NCBI RefSeq assembly: GCF_023515995.1
Contig: NZ_CP097320.1
Span: 930,001-994,000, forward strand
DNA length: 64,000 bases
Reading direction: 5' to 3'
From: Candidatus Mycobacterium methanotrophicum
GTDB taxonomy: Bacteria > Actinomycetota > Actinomycetes > Mycobacteriales > Mycobacteriaceae
Shown here one piece after another: positions 38,400 through 52,457 of this stretch (position 1 is the first letter of the stretch; each line of letters opens with the position of its first letter). The position numbers and the translations under genes were made by a program. The notes under the pieces are model-generated. The model did not search any database. It was not told where the DNA came from and saw only the letters and a program-made list of their open reading frames with translations.

Positions 38400-40472
<2,073 letters not shown>

Positions 40473-43384: not shown

Positions 43385-43632
43385 ATGAGTATTAGCGGGT
43401 CCGGCCTTCGGGCAGACTTGCTACCGGTAGCGGCCGGTGGGTGAGCACTGATGCCTCCTGGATTTCGAGTCCTGATGTCAGATCGTCGCCCCCACCGGTT
43501 CGCCCGGGAGAAGGGATCGCTGATGGGATGTCGTGCCCGCCCGCGTGGCGTGAGCACTGCTTCATTAGGTCGCCGAGAGTTCTCCCGCACGCTGCCGGCT
43601 GTAACCCGGACAACTGCAGACAGGAGCGAGGA
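43385..43632 (+). ncRNA. Possible bridge-RNA region of the IS110 element
   Basis: This 248-base non-coding left end is well conserved in the inverted right copy (47704-47955), although that copy's transposase has decayed. Shared features are GGGCAGACT, the palindrome-like GCTACCGGTAGC (GCTAGCGGTAGC in the other copy), GCGGCCGG, GGGTGAGCACTG, and GGATCGCTGATGGGATGTCG. Recent work on IS110 elements shows that such a left end is transcribed as a structured bridge RNA that selects donor and target DNA. Assignment is from position and conservation; the loops were not folded. Confidence 0.45.
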
Positions 43633-44868
43633 GTGGCGAAATTGCTGTACGTGGGCGACGATTGGGCGGAAGATCATCACGACGTCGAACTGATGGACTC
43701 GGCGGGACGCAGGCTGGCCAGGGCGCGGCTGCCCGAGGGCGCGGCCGGGATCGCGCGGTTGCACGCGATGATCGGCGCCGAGCTGGGCGCCGACGCCGAC
43801 ATGGCCGAGGTGGCGATCGGAATCGAGACCGACCGGGGCCCGTGGGTGGCCGCGCTGATCGCGGCCGGATACACCGTGTACGCGGTGAACCCGCTGTCGG
43901 TGGCCCGGTACCGGGAGCGGCACAGCGTCTCCGGCGCCAAGAGCGACCCGGCGGACGCACACACGCTGGCCGACATGGTCCGCACCGACTCGCACCAGCT
44001 GCGCCCGGTGGCCGGCGACAGCGCGGCAGCCGAGGCGGTGAAAGTTGTTGCCCGCTCGCACAAGACGATGATCTGGGACCGCACCCGCCACACCCAGCGG
44101 CTGCGGCACGCGCTGCGCGAGTACTTCCCCGCCGCGCTGGAAGCCTTCGACGATCTCGACGCGGCCGATGCGCTGGAACTGCTCGGCAGAGCCCCCGACC
44201 CCGCGTCGGCGGCGAAGCTGAACCGCAGCCAGATCCGGGCCGCGCTCAAACACGCCGGTCGCCGCGACATCGACACCAAGACCAGCCGGATCCAGGACGC
44301 GCTGCGCGGCGAGCAGCTCGGCCGCGACCCGGTGATCACCACCGCGTACGCGGCTGCCACCCGCTCGATCGTGGCCGTGCTCACCACCCTCAACGAGCAG
44401 ATCGCGATCCTGCAAGAGCAGGTGGAGGAGCATTTTCACCGGCACCCGGACGCTGAGATCATCCTGTCGCAGCCCGGCCTGGGACCGATCCTCGGCGCCC
44501 GGGTGCTCGCCGAATTCGGCGACGACCCAGCACGGTACGCCGACGCGAAGGCCCGCAAGAACTACGCCGGAACCAGCCCGATCACCCGCGCCTCCGGCAA
44601 GAAGAAGGTCGTGCTCGCGCGGTTCGTGCATCAGGACAGGCTCATCGACGCGCTGATGACGCAGGCGTTCTCCGCGCTGCGCGCCTCGCCCGGCGCACGC
44701 GCCTACTACGACAAGCAACGCGCCCGCGGCCTCGGCCACAACCCCGCGCTGCGCCAGCTCGCCAACCGGCTCGTCGGAATCCTGCACGGCTGCCTCAAGA
44801 CCCGCACGCTCTACGACGAAGCCACCGCCTGGCCGTCCCACAATCAAGATCAACAAACCGCCGCTTGA
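43633..44868 (+). CDS. IS110-family transposase
   Basis: 411 residues from a GTG with GAGCGAGGAG in front. The N-terminal DEDD/RuvC-like domain is complete: LLYVGDDWAEDHHDVELMD, GIETDRGPWVAALIAAGY, and SGAKSDPADAHTLADMVRTD near residue 110. A helical middle (residues 130-290) leads to the C-terminal Tnp_IS116/IS110/IS902 domain: QPGLGPILGARVLAEFGD, ARKNYAGTSPITRASGKKKV and a serine-containing SPGARAYYDKQRARG-like end. No frameshift is seen, so it may be active and could also act on the decayed inverted copy 2 kb away. Confidence 0.9.
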   Translation: MAKLLYVGDDWAEDHHDVELMDSAGRRLARARLPEGAAGIARLHAMIGAELGADADMAEVAIGIETDRGPWVAALIAAGYTVYAVNPLSVARYRERHSVSGAKSDPADAHTLADMVRTDSHQLRPVAGDSAAAEAVKVVARSHKTMIWDRTRHTQRLRHALREYFPAALEAFDDLDAADALELLGRAPDPASAAKLNRSQIRAALKHAGRRDIDTKTSRIQDALRGEQLGRDPVITTAYAAATRSIVAVLTTLNEQIAILQEQVEEHFHRHPDAEIILSQPGLGPILGARVLAEFGDDPARYADAKARKNYAGTSPITRASGKKKVVLARFVHQDRLIDALMTQAFSALRASPGARAYYDKQRARGLGHNPALRQLANRLVGILHGCLKTRTLYDEATAWPSHNQDQQTAA

Positions 44869-44992
44869 CATTTAAGCTCCTGGGATGTCTGACATAGCTC
44901 AGGAATTGGTGACAAACCCAAAGACCCAGGTCAACAAGAAAATAACCCGGGTCAACAAAATGCCGCTTGACAAACCTAGTTCATGGGATGTC

Positions 44993-45102
44993 TACCTCGA
45001 CACCGCCAACAAATGGGGCATCAACAAACTCCACGCCCTCCGCCAACTCTTCACCACCGGCGCGTGGCTACCCCCAATGCTCGTCCCCAGCTGAACAGCT
45101 AC
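44993..45102 (+). pseudogene. IS66-type transposase 3' end, left copy
   Basis: The frame YLDTANKWGINKLHALRQLF, then TTGAWLPPMLVPS and a stop at 45092-45094, is the C-terminal tail of an IS66-family transposase. The rest of the gene on this side is absent; an IS110 right end precedes it directly. An inverted copy lies at 46598-46717. The two tails face each other and the 1.5 kb between them is cbbM with its flanks. Similarity between the arms ends at agctac (45097-45102). Confidence 0.75.
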
Positions 45103-45142
45103 GCCGCCCACCCCGGCTACTCATTAGCGATCGCCCGGCTCC

Positions 45143-45156
45143 TGACGCAGGCGTCA
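45143..45156. terminator. Short hairpin at the cbbM stop codon
   Basis: tgacgc pairs with gcgtca around a two-base loop; the stem includes the TGA stop of cbbM on the minus strand. It is short and lacks a U tract, so the terminator reading is weak. Confidence 0.3.
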
Positions 45157-46551
45157 AGCGACCTTGAGCTGCTTGCGCCAATTCGGGTAGAGGGCGTCGG
45201 CGTCGTGGGGAAAGCTTTCAAAAGCACGGGCGAACTCCCGATACTCTTTTGCCCACGCCAACGGGTCGGCCTTTGCCTTCCAGCACTCATAGGCCTGACG
45301 TAAGGATTTGGCACCAGCGGCTGGGCCATCGACGTGCCCGTAACATCCGCCTCCCGCCGTCATGATGAGATTCCCGTGCCCCAAATTATCAAAGAAGCCC
45401 GGGGTCCGAACCGCATTCATTCCACCGGAGATGATCGGCGTCGTCGCCCTCATGCCGTGCCACTCCTGATGGTAATAAGGGCCATCGGCGCTGTCCCGCT
45501 CGATCATGTAGGCAATGGCCCGGTCATCCTTGCCGCCTTCCATCTTGCCGTAGCCCATAGTCCCCACATGAATTCCGGATGCCCCCAGGAGCCGTGACAA
45601 CTTGATGTGGACGAAGGTGGTATAACCGCGGGGATTGACCCCCGATGTGATGGCTCCGTGGCCGGCCCGATGGTAATGAAGGAAGACATTTGGGAAATGG
45701 CGGCGCACTGTGGCGACACCGCTTGGCCCGGCGACAAAACCGTCCACGAGAAAGGCCACCTTATTCGCATCATTGCCGAAAACCTGGAGGATGTATTCGC
45801 CGCGAGCGATAATTTCCCTGGGATCATCAGCCGTAATGTTGAACGAGAATAGCTTGGCTTCGCCCGTCTTGTCCTGGGCGCGACGCATCGAGTCGGCCAA
45901 GAGCGGAACGACTTCCCGCATCGGACAGAATGGCTGGTTGCCCTGGGGCTCGTCATTCTTAATGAAATCCCCGCCCAGCCAAAAGTCATAAGCGGCATCG
46001 GCAAAAGGCTTGGGACGCAGGCCCAGCTTGGGCTTGATGATGGTGCCCACCACGAAACCGCCATCCACAGGAGATCGCCCCAGAACGCGCCAAAGTTGGC
46101 TGATGTTGAGCGCCGGGCCATCAAAAAGGAGCAAAGCCTTGGGAGGCACGTAGACATCCATGAGGCGCAGGCTGATGAAATCTGCCATTCCCTGATTATT
46201 GCCAACGATCAGGCTGGTGAACTGCGAGAGCATCATCCGCCCATCGGTAATGTTGCGGTCGAAGAGCTCCAGCGGATAGGCCAGCTTTATCAAGCCGCCG
46301 GCCTCGCCGAACGCCTGCTCGTCAATGGCGTAGACCAAGGCATCCACGCCACGGGTGAAGTCGTCGGTCGTGCTCACCTCCACGTTGGTTCCGGTGGAGG
46401 ATTCAGCAGCCACGTGCGCCGCCGTCGCCAGGAAGCCGTGGCCGGGCTTTGGCTGGAGCCGGTACGTGCAGAGAACGTGGTTGCCCTCCGCAATGAGCCT
46501 GCCCTCTTCCAGCTTCAGGTTGCTGTAGCGATGTGACTGGTCATAAGCCAT
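45154..46551 (-). CDS. cbbM: Form II ribulose-bisphosphate carboxylase/oxygenase (RuBisCO)
   Basis: 465 residues, full length for form II (466 in Rhodospirillum rubrum CbbM). It begins [20 protein letters not shown] and ends [11 protein letters not shown]. All catalytic residues are in place, offset by +7 from R. rubrum after a five-residue insertion near position 83: Lys173 ([10 protein letters not shown]), carbamylated Lys198 with Asp200/Glu201 ([14 protein letters not shown]), His294 (HYHRAGHG), His328, loop-6 Lys336 ([11 protein letters not shown]) and Ser375 (IISGGMNA); Glu50 and Asn118 also fit. It fixes CO2 on ribulose-1,5-bisphosphate. Two hand-counted 60-base lines give 50% and 57% GC versus about 65% for neighbouring genes. 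No phosphoribulokinase, CbbR or CbbQ/O gene is in the window. Transfer from an autotrophic proteobacterium or similar donor is inferred. Confidence 0.95.
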
Positions 46552-46557
46552 CTGTAA

Positions 46558-46597
46558 TACTCCTTTGGTGTATAAGCGGATTATACGGTGCTTGTAT
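46558..46597 (-). promoter_or_regulatory. Promoter-like -10 box and Shine-Dalgarno site of cbbM
   Basis: Upstream of the cbbM ATG the minus strand has AAAGGAG (46560-46566), about eight bases before the start. A perfect sigma-70-type TATAAT lies at 46580-46585. No clear -35 hexamer is seen 17 bases further up; that position falls in the IS66 tail. The whole signal is inside the cargo, just within the inverted repeat, so the gene carries its own expression signals. A consensus -10 with such AT-rich context is unusual for this genome. Confidence 0.55.
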
Positions 46598-46717
46598 GTA
46601 GCTATTCAGCTGGGGGCTAGCGCTGGGGGTAGCCAGGCGCCGGTGGCGAAGAGCTGGCGGAGGGCGTGGAGTTTCATGGAGTTTGTTGATGCCCCATTTG
46701 TTGGCGGTGTCGATGTA
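46598..46717 (-). pseudogene. IS66-type transposase 3' end, right copy (inverted)
   Basis: Inverted copy of 44993-45102. The minus strand reads YIDTANKWGINKLH, then an 11-bp duplication (catgaaactcc) shifts the frame, after which the tail ALRQLFATGAWLPPALAPS and stop are recognisable in the shifted frame. The upstream part of this transposase lies beyond the IS110 insertion at 47956-48668, which ends in FAIVHS; IS66 relatives read FAIV-SYL-TA-KWG across this point. The IS110 therefore inserted exactly at this codon. Confidence 0.75.
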
Positions 46718-47955
46718 GACATCCCATGAAACTGGTTTGTCAAGCGGCATTTTGTTGATCTGGGTTATTTTATTGTTGACCTGGGTCTTTGGGTTGGGGC
46801 CATGCGGTTGATTCGTTGTAGTTGGTGCGGATTTTGAGGCAGCCGTGCAGGATGCCGACGAGCCGGTTGGAGAGCTGGCGTGGTGCGGCGTTGTTGCTCA
46901 GCTCCCGGTCGCGTTGTTTGTTGCAGTCGGCGCGGGCGCCGGGTGAGGCGCGTAGCGCGGACTGGGCTTGGAGCATGAGCGCGTCGATGAGCCGGTGGTT
47001 GTGCACGAACCGGGTGTGCCACGACCTTCTTCTTGCCCGACGCACGGGTGATGGGGCTGGTGCCGGCATAGTTCTTGCGTGCCTTGGCATCGGTGTAACG
47101 CCCTGGGGCATCACCGAATTCGCCGAGCACCCGGGCGCCGGGCAACGGTCCCATGCCGGGCTGGGACATGATGATCTCAGCGTCCGGGTGCCGGCCAGAA
47201 TGGGCCTCCGCCTGCCCTTGCAAGACCTCGATCTGCTCGTTGAGCGTACGAAGGACTGCCACGATGGAGCGGGTGGTAGCCGCGTACGCGCCGGCCATCG
47301 CCTCGCGGCGGCCGAGCTGCCGGCCGCGCAGAGCGTCCTGAATACGCGCGGTTTTGGTGTCGATGTCGCGGCGGCGGGCGCCTTTGAGCGCAGCCCGGAT
47401 CTGGGGGCCAGTCAGCTTGGCCGCCGAGGCCGGGCCGGGCGCCTTGGTCAGCAACTGCAGCGTGTCAGCGGCGTCGAGGTCTTCGAAGGCCTCTAACGCG
47501 GCCGGGAAGTACTCGCGCAGCGCATGCCGCAGACGCAGCACATGGCGAGTGCGTTCCCAAATCAGCGTCTTATGCACGCGGGCAACCACTTTGATCGCCT
47601 GAACCTGAGAACTGTCGGCTGCGACGGACCGCAGCTGAATGCGCGTCGGTGCGCACCATGTCAGCCATGATCCTCCGCCCAATCGTCTTCCACGAATAAC
47701 AAAACCAATCCTCCTGGTTCGACACCAATGGATGATTCGGTAACGTGCGGGCGAACTGCCGGCAACCTAATGAACCAGTGCTCACGCCACATGCGGCGGG
47801 CACGACATCCCATCAGCGATCCCTCCTCCCGAGCTAACCGGCGGGGGCAACGATCTACCTCTAGCTAGGACTCGAAGTCCAGGAGCTAACAGTGCTCACC
47901 CGCCGGCCGCTACCGCTAGCGAGTCTGCCCGATGGACCGGCCCGCTAGTTCCGGT
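46718..47955 (-). mobile_element. IS110-family element, right copy (inverted, decayed)
   Basis: It spans from the right end at about 46718 (catcccatg...gtcaagcggc on the plus strand) to the left end next to CTCCTA at 47956-47961. It is inverted relative to the copy at 43385. Its non-coding left end is well conserved, but its transposase is deleted and frameshifted. It interrupts the IS66-type transposase gene between the Ser-Tyr codons. Confidence 0.75.
46769..47690 (-). pseudogene. IS110 transposase, N-terminal domain deleted and frameshifted
   Basis: After the start region (VEDDWAEDH in one frame) about 290 bases are missing, and the sequence resumes at ADMVRTDAHQLRSV-like coding. The removed part contains most of the DEDD catalytic domain. 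The middle (VARVHKTLIWERTRHVLRLR, TKTARIQDALRGRQLGR) and the C-terminal domain up to NYAGTSPITRASGKKKVV are in frame; then a further frameshift moves the tail (FVHNHRLIDALMLQAQSALR, ASPGARADCNKQRDRELSN) into another frame. It ends STAWPQPKDPGQQ. It cannot encode an active recombinase. Confidence 0.85.
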
Positions 47956-48668
47956 TAGGAGTGCACGATGGCGAAGTCGGCGAGGCCTTCCACGGTGCGC
48001 GGGCAGCCGCCGGAGCTGCGTTGCTGGATTTCGACTGGGCGCAGGGTGCGTTCGGCGTCGTTGTTGGTGAACGGCACCGACAGGTCGGTGGCGAAGCGCA
48101 GGATCATGTCCTCATAGCGGCGGAACCGGGTGATCAGGGTGCGGCCTTGGCGGCGAGTTCGGTGTGCTGGCGACGGTTTTCGTCGCTGCCGTGGGCCAGC
48201 GCGCCCAGGTAGTGGTTGCGGATGGCCGCGAGTACGGCCGGGTCGAGGGCTTCGGCGCCAGCGGCGCGGGCGGCGGTGGCGGCGTGGTGGGCGTCGAGCA
48301 GCACGCCGGCCAGGGCCAGTGCCCATTGCTGGTGGTCGGGGTCGGCGTCGGAGATCGAGCGCAGGTCGCGCAGCAGATGCGCGGCGCACCAGGCGTGGAT
48401 CGCGGGCAGATGGCTGTGGCCGGCGTAGCCGTCGCGTACCAGCACCCCGGTGTATTCGGTGAGCACGCCGCCCTCGCCGATGGTGGCGGCCCAGCGGTGC
48501 CCGACGTGCATCAAGGTCAGGTATTCGGTGCAGGCGACGTGCACGTAGGACAGGGCGCCGCCGGCACAAGCTGGCCGTCACCCGTAGCTCGCCGTCCTCG
48601 ACCGCGGCCTTGCCGACACGCGCGCCGGGCAGTTCGAAGAGGGCATTGAGTAGGGGTGACGCGCGCAC
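47956..48668 (-). pseudogene. IS66-type transposase, central part, frameshifted
   Basis: Two frames are used. One (48134-48544) gives MHVACTEYLTLMHVGHRWAA, TEYTGVLVRDGYAGHSHLPA and HAWCAAHLLRDLRSISDADP, the DDE-domain core of IS66 transposases. The second gives TLITRFRRYEDMILRFATDL, SVPFTNNDAERTLRPVEIQQ and RSSGGCPRTVEGLADFAIVH. The 5' end (zinc-finger region and orf1/orf2) is missing and the 3' end is cut by the IS110 insertion. It is a dead element; its tail lies at 46598-46717. Confidence 0.8.
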
Positions 48669-48796: not shown

Positions 48797-49456
48797 TCAA
48801 TGCAACAGGGTTCCGACGATTCCGGCCAGGTAGCCCAGCCGCGCCACCTCTGACGGCCGGAATACCGGCCCGCCCGGCCGGCCCAGCATCACCGCCGTAT
48901 CGGGCGATCCCAGCGGCGCGGCGACCAGCGTGGTGTCCAGCTCACGCCAGACCTGCGGCACCCAGTCGTCGCCGGCGTCCAGGGCAGTGGGGTGCTGGAT
49001 AGGCATCCACGGGACGGCGTCGAGTCGGGTTTCCGGCGCGCCCGGGCTGCCGACCACGGGCCGGATCCCGTTCTCGGAGCTGCGCAGCACCGCACACCAG
49101 CTCACCCGCAGCACCTGCGGCGCCTCGGCGACCAGCACCTTTAGCTTGCCCGCGGTGTCGCCGGCGGCGGCGACGTGGTCAATCAGTTCCAGTTCCCGGT
49201 GGGCTTCCAGCAGGCCGGTGTGCGGTCGCAGGCTGTCCACCCGCACCCCGTTGAGTGCTTCGGCAGCGGTGATCAGCGTGTCGGGCATGGCTCTCGGCGG
49301 CAGCTCGACCACGAGGTCGTCAATCGCGTAGCCGGACCCGCGTTCGATGACATCCAGCGACAAGATGTCGGCGCCCACCGAGCCCAGGGCCAGGGCCAGC
49401 GAGCCGAGGCTGCCTGGCCGGTCGGCAAGCTGAATGCGCAGCAGATAGGAAGGCAC
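48797..49456 (-). CDS. ACT-domain regulatory protein (Rv3013-like)
   Basis: 219 residues (218 in M. tuberculosis Rv3013). The GTG start gives [20 protein letters not shown]. The N-terminal ACT domain ([20 protein letters not shown], then [20 protein letters not shown]) is followed by a second ligand-binding-like region ending [20 protein letters not shown]. Such proteins sense amino acids; the partner is unknown. It is divergent from gatC. Its last 89 bases are repeated at 41053-41141, marking the junction with the accessory island. Confidence 0.9.
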
Positions 49457-49550
49457 CTGCAACACTGTTGCACAGCCACGCGCCCGCGGCATGTCGGCGG
49501 CGAGTGTGCTGCCAGCGTCATATTCGGACAGCCCGATAGGCTCTTGCGTC

Positions 49551-49850
49551 GTGTCCCAGATCTCCCGCGACGAGGTGGCCCATCTGGCCCGTCTGGCCCG
49601 GCTGGCATTGACCGATGCCGAGCTGGACACCTACGCCAGCCAACTCGACGCCATCCTGACCCATGTCAGCCAGGTCCAAGCCGTCGACGTCACCGGTGTC
49701 GAGCCAACCGACAACCCGCTCAAAGACGTCAACGTCGCCCGCCCCGACCAGATCACACCGTGCCTGACTCAGCAGGAAGCGCTCGCCGAGGCGCCTGAAG
49801 CCGTGGACGGGCGCTTCGCTGTCCCGCAGATCCTCGGGGAACCGCAATGA
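49551..49850 (+). CDS. gatC: Asp/Glu-tRNA amidotransferase subunit C
   Basis: 99 residues, equal to M. tuberculosis GatC (Rv3012c). The GTG start gives [20 protein letters not shown], the standard opening of the family, followed by [20 protein letters not shown] and [11 protein letters not shown]. It is the small belt-like subunit that wraps GatA and GatB. The ATG of gatA overlaps its stop. Confidence 0.95.
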
Positions 49851-51325
49851 CCGACATCATCCGGCTCGACGCCGCGACGCTGGCCGGCAAAATCGCCGCC
49901 AAGGAGCTGTCGTCCACCGAGGTCACCCAAGCGTTCCTGAACCAGATCGCGGCGACCGATGGACGCTACGGCGCCTTCCTGCACGTGGCGGCCGATGCGG
50001 CGTTGTCGGCCGCGGCAGCCGTCGACAAGGCGATAGCCGCCGGCGAGTCGCCGTCACCGCTGGCAGGAGTGCCGTTAGCTCTCAAAGACGTGTTCACCAG
50101 CCGCGACATGCCGACCACCTGCGGGTCGAAGATCCTCGAGGGCTGGCGTTCCCCCTACGACGCCACGGTGACCGCGCGCCTGCGAGCAGCCGGTATCCCG
50201 ATCCTGGGCAAAACCAACATGGACGAGTTCGCGATGGGCTCGTCGACGGAGAACTCCGCCTACGGCCCGACTCGCAACCCGTGGGACACCGACCGGGTTC
50301 CGGGTGGCTCCGGGGGCGGCAGCGCTGCCGCGCTCGCGGCGTTTCAGGCACCGCTGGCCGTCGGAACCGACACCGGCGGCTCGATCCGCCAGCCGGCCGC
50401 GCTGACGGCGACCGTCGGCGTCAAACCCACCTACGGCACGGTGTCCCGCTACGGCCTGGTGGCTTGCGCGTCATCGCTGGATCAGGGCGGTCCGTGTGCG
50501 CGCACCGTGCTCGACACCGCGCTGCTGCATCAGGTGATCGCCGGACACGATCCGAAAGACTCCACCTCCGCCGACGCCGACGTTCCCGATGTCGTCGGCG
50601 CCGCGAAGGCCGGCGCCGCGGGAGATCTGAGCGGTGTCCGCGTCGGCGTGGTCCGGCAGTTGCGCGGCGAGGGTTATCAGCCCGGTGTGCTGGAATCGTT
50701 CAACAGTGCCGTCGAGCAGTTGACCGCGATCGGCGCCGACGTGTCCGAAGTCGACTGTCCCCACTTCGATCACGCGCTGGCCGCCTACTACCTGATCTTG
50801 CCGTCGGAGGTGTCGAGCAACCTGGCCCGCTTCGACGCCATGCGCTACGGGCTGCGGGTCGGCGACGACGGCACGCACAGCGCCGAGGAGGTGATGGCTC
50901 TTACCCGGGCGGCCGGGTTCGGGCCAGAGGTCAAGCGGCGCATCATGATCGGCACCTACGCGCTGTCGGCGGGCTACTACGACGCCTACTACAACCAGGC
51001 GCAGAAGGTGCGCACGTTGATCGCCCGTGACCTCGACGCTGCCTATGCATGCGTGGACGTGCTGGTGTCGCCTACCACGCCGACGACCGCATTCCGGTTG
51101 GGGGAGAAGGTAGACGATCCGCTGGCGATGTATTTGTTCGACCTGTGCACGCTGCCGCTGAATTTGGCCGGCCACTGCGGAATGTCGGTGCCGTCGGGGT
51201 TGTCGCCGGACGACAATTTGCCGGTCGGGCTGCAGATCATGGCGCCGGCGCTGGCCGACGACCGGATCTACCGGGTGGCGGCGGCCTACGAGGCCGCCCG
51301 CGGACCTCTGCCGTCAGCCATTTAA
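49847..51325 (+). CDS. gatA: Asp/Glu-tRNA amidotransferase subunit A
   Basis: 492 residues of the amidase-signature family. The Ser-cisSer-Lys triad is present: Lys in [20 protein letters not shown] (near residue 77), and the glycine/serine loop [20 protein letters not shown] then [20 protein letters not shown] (near 150-185). It releases ammonia from glutamine for transamidation of Glu-tRNA(Gln) and Asp-tRNA(Asn). gatB is 2.5 kb downstream, separated by pfkA and a MinD-like gene. Confidence 0.97.
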
Positions 51326-51327
51326 CT

Positions 51328-51394
51328 GGCGCGAGCAGACGCAGAATCGCGTAAAAAATCGCCTAGCGCGTGCGATTCTGCGTCTGCTCGCGCC
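51328..51394. repeat. Dispersed inverted repeat, second copy; likely gatA terminator
   Basis: Arms of 23 bases (51328-51350, starting ggcgcgagcaga; 51372-51394, ending tctgctcgcgcc) pair perfectly around a 21-base spacer containing taaaaaa. It starts two bases after the gatA stop. The arms match those at 32693-32750. A stem this strong between gatA and pfkA should terminate or punctuate transcription. Confidence 0.85.
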
Positions 51395-51425
51395 ACCCGG
51401 GCGACAACCAGGCAAGATGAGGGGC

Positions 51426-52457
51426 ATGCGGATCGGAATTCTTACCGGCGGCGGGGACTGTCCCGGGCTCAACGCCGTCATCCGTGCGGTGGTGCGCACC
51501 TGCGACTCGCGATACGGGTCGTCGGTGGTCGGATTTCAGGACGGATGGCGCGGGCTGCTGGAAAACCGGCGCATGCAACTGCGCAATGACGACCGCAACG
51601 ACCGACTGCTGACCAAGGGCGGAACGATGCTGGGCACCGCCCGGGTACACCCGGACAAACTGAAGACCGGACTAGACCAGATCAAGCAGACGCTGGACGA
51701 CAACGGCATCGACGTGCTGATCCCGATCGGCGGCGAGGGAACGCTGACCGCCGCGCACTGGCTCTCCGAGGAGAACGTCCCGGTTGTCGGCGTGCCGAAG
51801 ACCATCGACAACGACATCGACTGCACAGACGCAACTTTCGGCCACGACACGGCGTTGACGGTGGCCACCGACGCGATCGACCGGTTGCACAGCACCGCCG
51901 AGTCGCACCAGCGGGTGATGCTGGTCGAGGTGATGGGCCGGCACGCCGGCTGGATCGCGCTCAACGCCGGGCTGGCGTCCGGCGCTCACATGACGCTGAT
52001 CCCCGAAAAGCCCTTCGACGTCGAAGAGGTGTGCCGGCTGGTCAAATGGCGATTCCAGCGCGGCGACTCGCATTTCATCTGCGTGGTCGCCGAAGGCGCC
52101 AAACCGGCCCCCGACTCGATGACGCTGCGTGAAGGCGGCCTCGATGAATTCGGCCACGAGCGGTTCACCGGCGTGGCCGACCAGTTGGCCGCAGAGGTGG
52201 AGAAGCGCATCAACAGGGAAGTCCGGGTGACTGTGCTCGGCCATGTCCAGCGCGGCGGCACGCCGACCGCTTACGACCGGGTGCTGGCCACCCGCTTCGG
52301 TGTCAACGCGGCCGATGCCGCACACGCCGGCGAGTTCGGCAATATGGTGGCGCTGCAAGGCCAGGACATCGGCCGGGTGCCACTGGCAGACGCGGTGCGC
52401 CAGCTCAAGCTGGTACCGCAAAGTCGCTACGACGACGCCGCCGCCTTCTTCGGTTAA
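51426..52457 (+). CDS. pfkA: ATP-dependent 6-phosphofructokinase
   Basis: 343 residues, equal to M. tuberculosis PfkA (Rv3010c). The ATG gives [20 protein letters not shown]. Family motifs are [33 protein letters not shown] (catalytic TIDND) and [20 protein letters not shown]. Gly in GGEGT indicates ATP use, while Lys in PKTIDND replaces the Gly of E. coli PfkA (PGTIDND), a combination known from actinobacterial enzymes. It phosphorylates fructose 6-phosphate in glycolysis. Confidence 0.95.

Follow-up and report, generated by a model that had tools for sequence, protein, structure and literature searches.

Form II RuBisCO of Methylacidimicrobium type as the likely replacement of the native enzyme in Candidatus Mycobacterium methanotrophicum

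Life takes in CO2 mainly through RuBisCO, and engineers of crops and microbes aim to swap one form of this enzyme for another. Form II enzymes in actinobacteria are already known, and the available sections of a culture-collection survey ascribe them to horizontal transfer (PMC12999727). Propionicicella superfundia and three culture-collection species resemble the genome described here in being actinobacterial carriers of form II, but this set has a different origin in our tree (L072 is 69% identical to the protein studied here, among the best 80 of 581 loci). In the same sections, the Mycobacteriales surveyed carried form IE in seven cases out of seven (PMC12999727). For Ca. Mycobacterium methanotrophicum and M. 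methanica MM-1, the accessible parts of Kambara et al. 2025 report soluble methane monooxygenase (sMMO) together with a Calvin cycle, and do not name the form of RuBisCO (PMC12366331); genes for sMMO and phosphoribulokinase (prk) were found here. Growth of both at low pH is described in the portions available of two papers (PMC12366331, PMC12542659). A further relevant organism is the verrucomicrobial methanotroph Methylacidimicrobium tartarophylax, which, according to the excerpted text of a review, was isolated from Solfatara soil and grows at pH 0.5-5.5 (PMC8498564). According to that text, verrucomicrobial methanotrophs have a form I RuBisCO, and no mention of 'form II' was found in it (PMC8498564). 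By contrast, the genomes of two Methylacidimicrobium strains each contain a cbbM of form II (L008:3828-5225, L009:8001-9398). Among the matches listed, no open-licence title or abstract opening described a form II RuBisCO in a mycobacterium, though it may be noted elsewhere, and no open-licence paper containing both 'Mycobacterium methanotrophicum' and 'RuBisCO' was found.

The window, by which we mean the whole 64,000-nt stretch analysed, spans positions 930001-994000 of the 4.72-Mb contig C1 of Ca. M. methanotrophicum (genome G000; two contigs totalling 5,002,371 bases, with completeness rated at 99.56% and contamination at 2.78%). It contains an intact cbbM of 465 aa on the minus strand (45154..46551), identified by its ORF and profile scores. 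The product belongs to a known family: it reaches 810.7 bits with the NCBIfam equivalog for form II (NF010002, cut-off 489), contains both Pfam RuBisCO domains, and is closest among solved structures to 6ius and 5c2c, the latter bearing the name Form II RubisCO. All eight positions checked (K173, K198, D200, E201, H294, H328, K336, S375) hold the expected residues, and the same eight, including the carbamylated lysine, are invariant in 86/86 aligned form II proteins; they correspond, at a constant offset of +7, to catalytic residues of the R. rubrum enzyme. A PF00016 search of the whole genome returned this gene as the sole RuBisCO match, and a second, form I copy was rejected on this result. 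The donor-type leader of cbbM (46552..46597, minus strand) contains AAAGGAG at 46560-46566 and TATAAT at 46580-46585. A sigma-70 scan called no promoter sites for cbbM (0.8 expected by chance), and a promoter at the TATAAT is only suggested by its sequence. LP2A, a Methylacidimicrobium strain, has TGTAAT and M. tartarophylax GAAAAT at the same place, so the TATAAT may be ancestral, and its origin after transfer was rejected.

The foreign cargo (45103..46597, 1495 nt, minus strand) lies between inverted arms ending at 45102 and 46598. Two IS66 tails point at cbbM, the left (44983..45102, plus strand, start approximate) comprising the C-terminal end of the transposase and terminal sequence, the right (46598..46713, minus strand) also with an approximate start. 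Two further IS66 elements elsewhere in the genome (L192, L193) terminate in almost the same sequence as is found at the cargo's edges, so the cargo is bounded by two facing IS66 ends. Each tail adjoins an IS110 transposase: a full-length copy of 475 aa on the left (43441..44868, plus strand; 182 bits against a cut-off of 140) and a broken one on the right (46765..47682, minus strand; 71 bits against the same cut-off). The right IS66 remnant retains part of a broken transposase body (47955..48668, minus strand, by ORF and profile search), and the left is the tail alone. A composite transposon would be flanked by two complete, near-identical IS copies; these IS66 copies are incomplete. Moreover, the two arms match each other at only 79-94% and are therefore no newly formed, identical pair; a young composite transposon of IS66 type was rejected on these grounds, and the flanks have aged, whereas cbbM is still intact. 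Matches to the actinobacterial sRNA Ms_AS-4 (Rfam) fall within both IS110 copies (44469-44550 and 47083-47164), antisense to the transposase, and this family may therefore include IS110-borne sequence.

Host genes lie on either side and are collinear with the mycobacterial genome G186. They are a ligA-like gene (38409..40472, plus strand) and, beyond the insertion, an ORF of unknown family followed by gatC/gatA/pfkA-like genes (48797..52457, no strand assigned), gene names that we take to be correct. These blocks are separated by ~0.6 kb in G186 compared with 8.3 kb here, of which the part from 40459 to ~43377 is host-type DNA rather than IS and has no match in the G186 stretch.

A protein search of genome contigs, from which the best 80 of 581 confirmed relatives were taken, placed CbbM closest to two Methylacidimicrobium, M. 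tartarophylax 4A (94% amino acid identity) and strain LP2A (89%), followed by one locus at 79% and the other 77 at 68-71%. The best 120 of 3907 hits in a protein database included a 90% and a 91% match, both to unnamed proteins, and one of 85% to a protein labelled Acidithiobacillus sp. In a tree of form II proteins (86 rows, 85 of them different), CbbM is sister to M. tartarophylax (support 100/94) within a clade of five (100/98) that also holds LP2A and the two unnamed proteins; the protein at 85% branches next to this clade (100/100). The DNA agrees: 45129-46599 matches M. tartarophylax at 91.6% over 1472 bp, the leader with its AAAGGAG included, as against 84.5% for LP2A and 74.9% for a Thiohalobacter MAG. 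The match ends clean at the IS66 termini, and no M. tartarophylax-type match was found for the first 26 nt of the cargo. Both Methylacidimicrobium proteins share with CbbM the extra residues after position 78, and their genes share a leader with a ribosome-binding site. However, cbbM of M. tartarophylax sits between a GH57 gene and ATP-synthase genes, whereas here it sits between IS66 ends in a mycobacterium. The GC3 of cbbM (0.723, or 72.3%; overall GC 59.3%) is near that of M. tartarophylax (0.710) and below that of the five flanking host ORFs measured (0.819-0.862, or 81.9-86.2%).

The mycobacterial and M. tartarophylax genes differ at 98 codons, 68 silent and 30 replacement (pairwise dN 0.034, dS 0.251). 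On the branch leading to the mycobacterial gene 26 codons could be assigned, 22 silent and 4 replacement (omega ~0.06, binomial p 8e-11), and on the M. tartarophylax branch 38 (30 silent, 8 replacement), with 34/98 assignable to neither. Counted less strictly, at the amino-acid level, each branch has 11 replacements, with 8 left unresolved. Part of this purifying selection may predate the transfer.

Taken together, these comparisons strongly support horizontal transfer into a mycobacterium of a form II RuBisCO gene that is intact and under selection, and by sequence relationship its nearest known source is Methylacidimicrobium, a genus of acidophilic verrucomicrobial methanotrophs, and not a proteobacterium. 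A first-pass annotation of this DNA had described the 465-residue CbbM with its catalytic residues at +7, the GC lower than its surroundings and the facing IS66 ends, each adjoining an IS110, with cbbM between them, and all of this holds. It had also proposed a recent horizontal gain. The gain itself is borne out by the tree, the DNA match, GC3 and selection, but the arms are not fresh. Its association of form II with proteobacteria does not extend to this gene, which the phylogeny it had suggested as a check placed with Methylacidimicrobium.

The annotation had further offered a role other than CO2 fixation on the ground that no phosphoribulokinase was visible, and had named a genome-wide search for prk as a check. 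That search gave two PF00485 matches, a weak one of 46 bits in an ORF that looks, we presume, like a pantothenate kinase, and a full-length one of 236 bits. The latter is an intact prk of 293 aa (G000:C1:3675587-3676468), 2.7 Mb from cbbM, so the genome has the phosphoribulokinase of the Calvin-Benson-Bassham cycle and its absence is ruled out. Since this mycobacterial-type prk is intact and adjoins an FBPase gene, the proposed other role loses its premise. The prk and FBPase products are 87% and 84-85% identical, respectively, to those of the form-I mycobacteria G186 and G083. Around them lie an epimerase gene, an ORF that we take to be a response regulator, a broken transketolase gene and HypD/HypE-type genes, with prk following FBPase; of the regeneration enzymes in the cluster, FBPase and epimerase are intact and the transketolase is broken. 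IS fragments are found upstream of FBPase.

For prk, FBPase, the response regulator and the epimerase, the form I (IE) clusters of G186 and G083 agree with this locus in gene type and in order. In both relatives FBPase and prk are faced by orf201, the third gene of the cbbLS operon, by cbbS and cbbL, then by FBA, and further off are the response regulator, epimerase, transketolase and a second PRK-like gene. Judged by position, cbbL also faces prk within ~3 kb in G039 and G252. The cbbL-cbbS pair therefore lies beside prk in 4/12 of the form-I mycobacterial loci read, and because the remaining 8/12 stretches have no prk or FBPase match near cbbL, the ancestral order rests on four genomes. Unlike G186 and G083, with cbbL-cbbS-orf201 beside prk, Ca. 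M. methanotrophicum retains an orf201 tail alone: the response-regulator ORF ends at 3675256, residues 113-201 of orf201 begin at 3675298 (79% identity to G186), and prk follows. Comparison with the relatives gave no match to cbbS, cbbL or FBA at this locus, so the mycobacterial form I arrangement is absent. Form I-type CbbX was not found either, the four matches in the genome (34-40% identity) being in ORFs of 622-773 aa. We interpret the orf201 tail as the remaining trace of a form I operon that was lost. The sensor-kinase gene (the response regulator's neighbour in the relatives), FBA and the second PRK-like gene, all neighbours of these genes in the relatives, are absent from the cluster and the transketolase is broken; the Calvin cluster may thus be decaying. 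In the relatives the distance from prk to the response regulator is ~17 kb (G083) and 34 kb (G186), and G186's own prk has frame breaks near its end.

A protein search with CbbM matched 54/396 mycobacterial genomes, and a RuBisCO family search 42/297, yet form II-like identity was seen in only 3/396: Ca. M. methanotrophicum itself, G391 (70%, full length) and G293 (65% over a 285-residue stretch). The others match at 29-37%, as expected for form I. By gatA-pfkA DNA, scored in 351 genomes, the closest relative is G148 (87%), then G186 (86%); G148 has no RuBisCO match and no prk, which tells against a replacement. G391 is a MAG, 73% complete, in which a 74-kb contig with genes of mycobacterial type carries the form II gene (L218:9870-11249) next to Mce4_CUP1 and DUF222 genes. 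The form II gene product is 90% identical to a protein of a Burkholderiales MAG. The prk locus of G391 (L221:5066-12997) holds FBPase, prk, a gene we take to be LysR-type, FBA, a sensor-type ORF, a response regulator and transketolase, with no cbbL or cbbS match. This suggests, from weaker data, a second and independent swap. G293 is a poor MAG (74% complete, ~630 contigs) that also has a form I gene and no prk match, and its form II fragment may be a binning error. In the same MAG (L188:3680-4480, L187, L179) an mmoX 97% identical to that of Ca. M. methanotrophicum, a form I cbbLS contig and, on another contig, the truncated form II fragment occur together, possibly through mixed binning or possibly through transfer of methane monooxygenase genes between mycobacteria.

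Those encoded in the host genome are mmoX (623 bits to 1fyz), Y, B, Z and a reductase, and the genome also encodes a NiFe hydrogenase (694 bits, with a full large-subunit match at 316013-317548). Downstream of the sMMO genes, on the opposite strand, is a gene for a GTP-type PEP carboxykinase (L175:15166-17118, minus strand). Fragmentary matches to the NiFe-hydrogenase large subunit (G000:C1:3663299-3663604 and 3741625-3742761) suggest decayed or divergent hydrogenases. It is plausible that host and source had an acidic, CO2-rich habitat in common.

Because native-type cbbLS is missing from the prk locus and the form II gene is the sole RuBisCO in the genome, the foreign enzyme likely replaced the native one and was not just gained. 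We give a probability of about 0.72 to this replacement, in which the only RuBisCO groups with Methylacidimicrobium, cbbL and cbbS of native type are gone from beside prk, and the foreign enzyme is predicted to work with the resident kinase. The lineage would formerly have had form I and then lost cbbLS, the loss and the gain of cbbM being linked in either order, with IS66/IS110 activity supplying the landing site. CbbM would carboxylate RuBP supplied by the host's own kinase, with the oxidation of methane or H2 as energy source, and a CO2-rich acidic habitat would have made a form II enzyme of low specificity tolerable.

The damage to the Calvin cluster could instead mean that cbbM is a passenger in a pathway being lost, with no useful CO2 fixation. 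The broken transketolase and the missing sensor kinase, FBA and second PRK-like gene are in keeping with this, as are the IS fragments upstream of FBPase, the hydrogenase fragments near the cluster and the lack of a called promoter for cbbM. However, none of cbbM, prk and FBPase is disrupted, cbbM has escaped the decay seen in the IS copies around it, and silent codons outnumber replacements 22 to 4 on its branch, so we regard this as unlikely. Somewhat less probable again is that RuBisCO and prk act in a non-cyclic role, as a redox sink or, while methane is being oxidised, in assimilating CO2 in connection with sugar-phosphate metabolism, rather than in autotrophic growth. The sMMO genes and the broken transketolase would fit such a role, and the available part of one paper reports that RuBisCO is essential in Methylococcus capsulatus Bath, with a non-canonical Calvin cycle (PMC8388818); against it, the hydrogenase and most Calvin genes are present, and housekeeping genes could supply the other steps. 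One short gene between repeats could also be an assembly chimera or contaminating Methylacidimicrobium DNA. This we consider very improbable, and contamination was rejected: the cargo's edges coincide exactly with two IS66 ends that have other copies elsewhere in the genome, it lies in a 4.72-Mb contig with host genes either side, its DNA is 8% different from the nearest known source, and without cbbM the genome would have prk but no RuBisCO.

Replacement of the native RuBisCO is directly testable, because the enzyme can be expressed and compared with CbbM of M. tartarophylax and with mycobacterial form I. What is new here is the likely natural exchange of a mycobacterium's own RuBisCO for an enzyme from another phylum, in a genome that keeps its native kinase and in which a putative scar of the old operon can still be read. 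If so, this mycobacterium would depend on a verrucomicrobial enzyme of form II whose gene has no activase gene next to it. More tentatively, and at somewhat less than even odds, at least two mycobacterial lineages may have independently lost cbbLS from the prk locus and come to rely on form II, verrucomicrobial in Ca. M. methanotrophicum and of betaproteobacterial type in G391, with foreign RuBisCOs acting as plug-in parts; the two would then be natural RuBisCO transplants showing the kinetic trade-off selected in CO2-rich habitats. Were the replacement true, methane-oxidising acidophiles of different phyla would trade core carbon-fixation genes.
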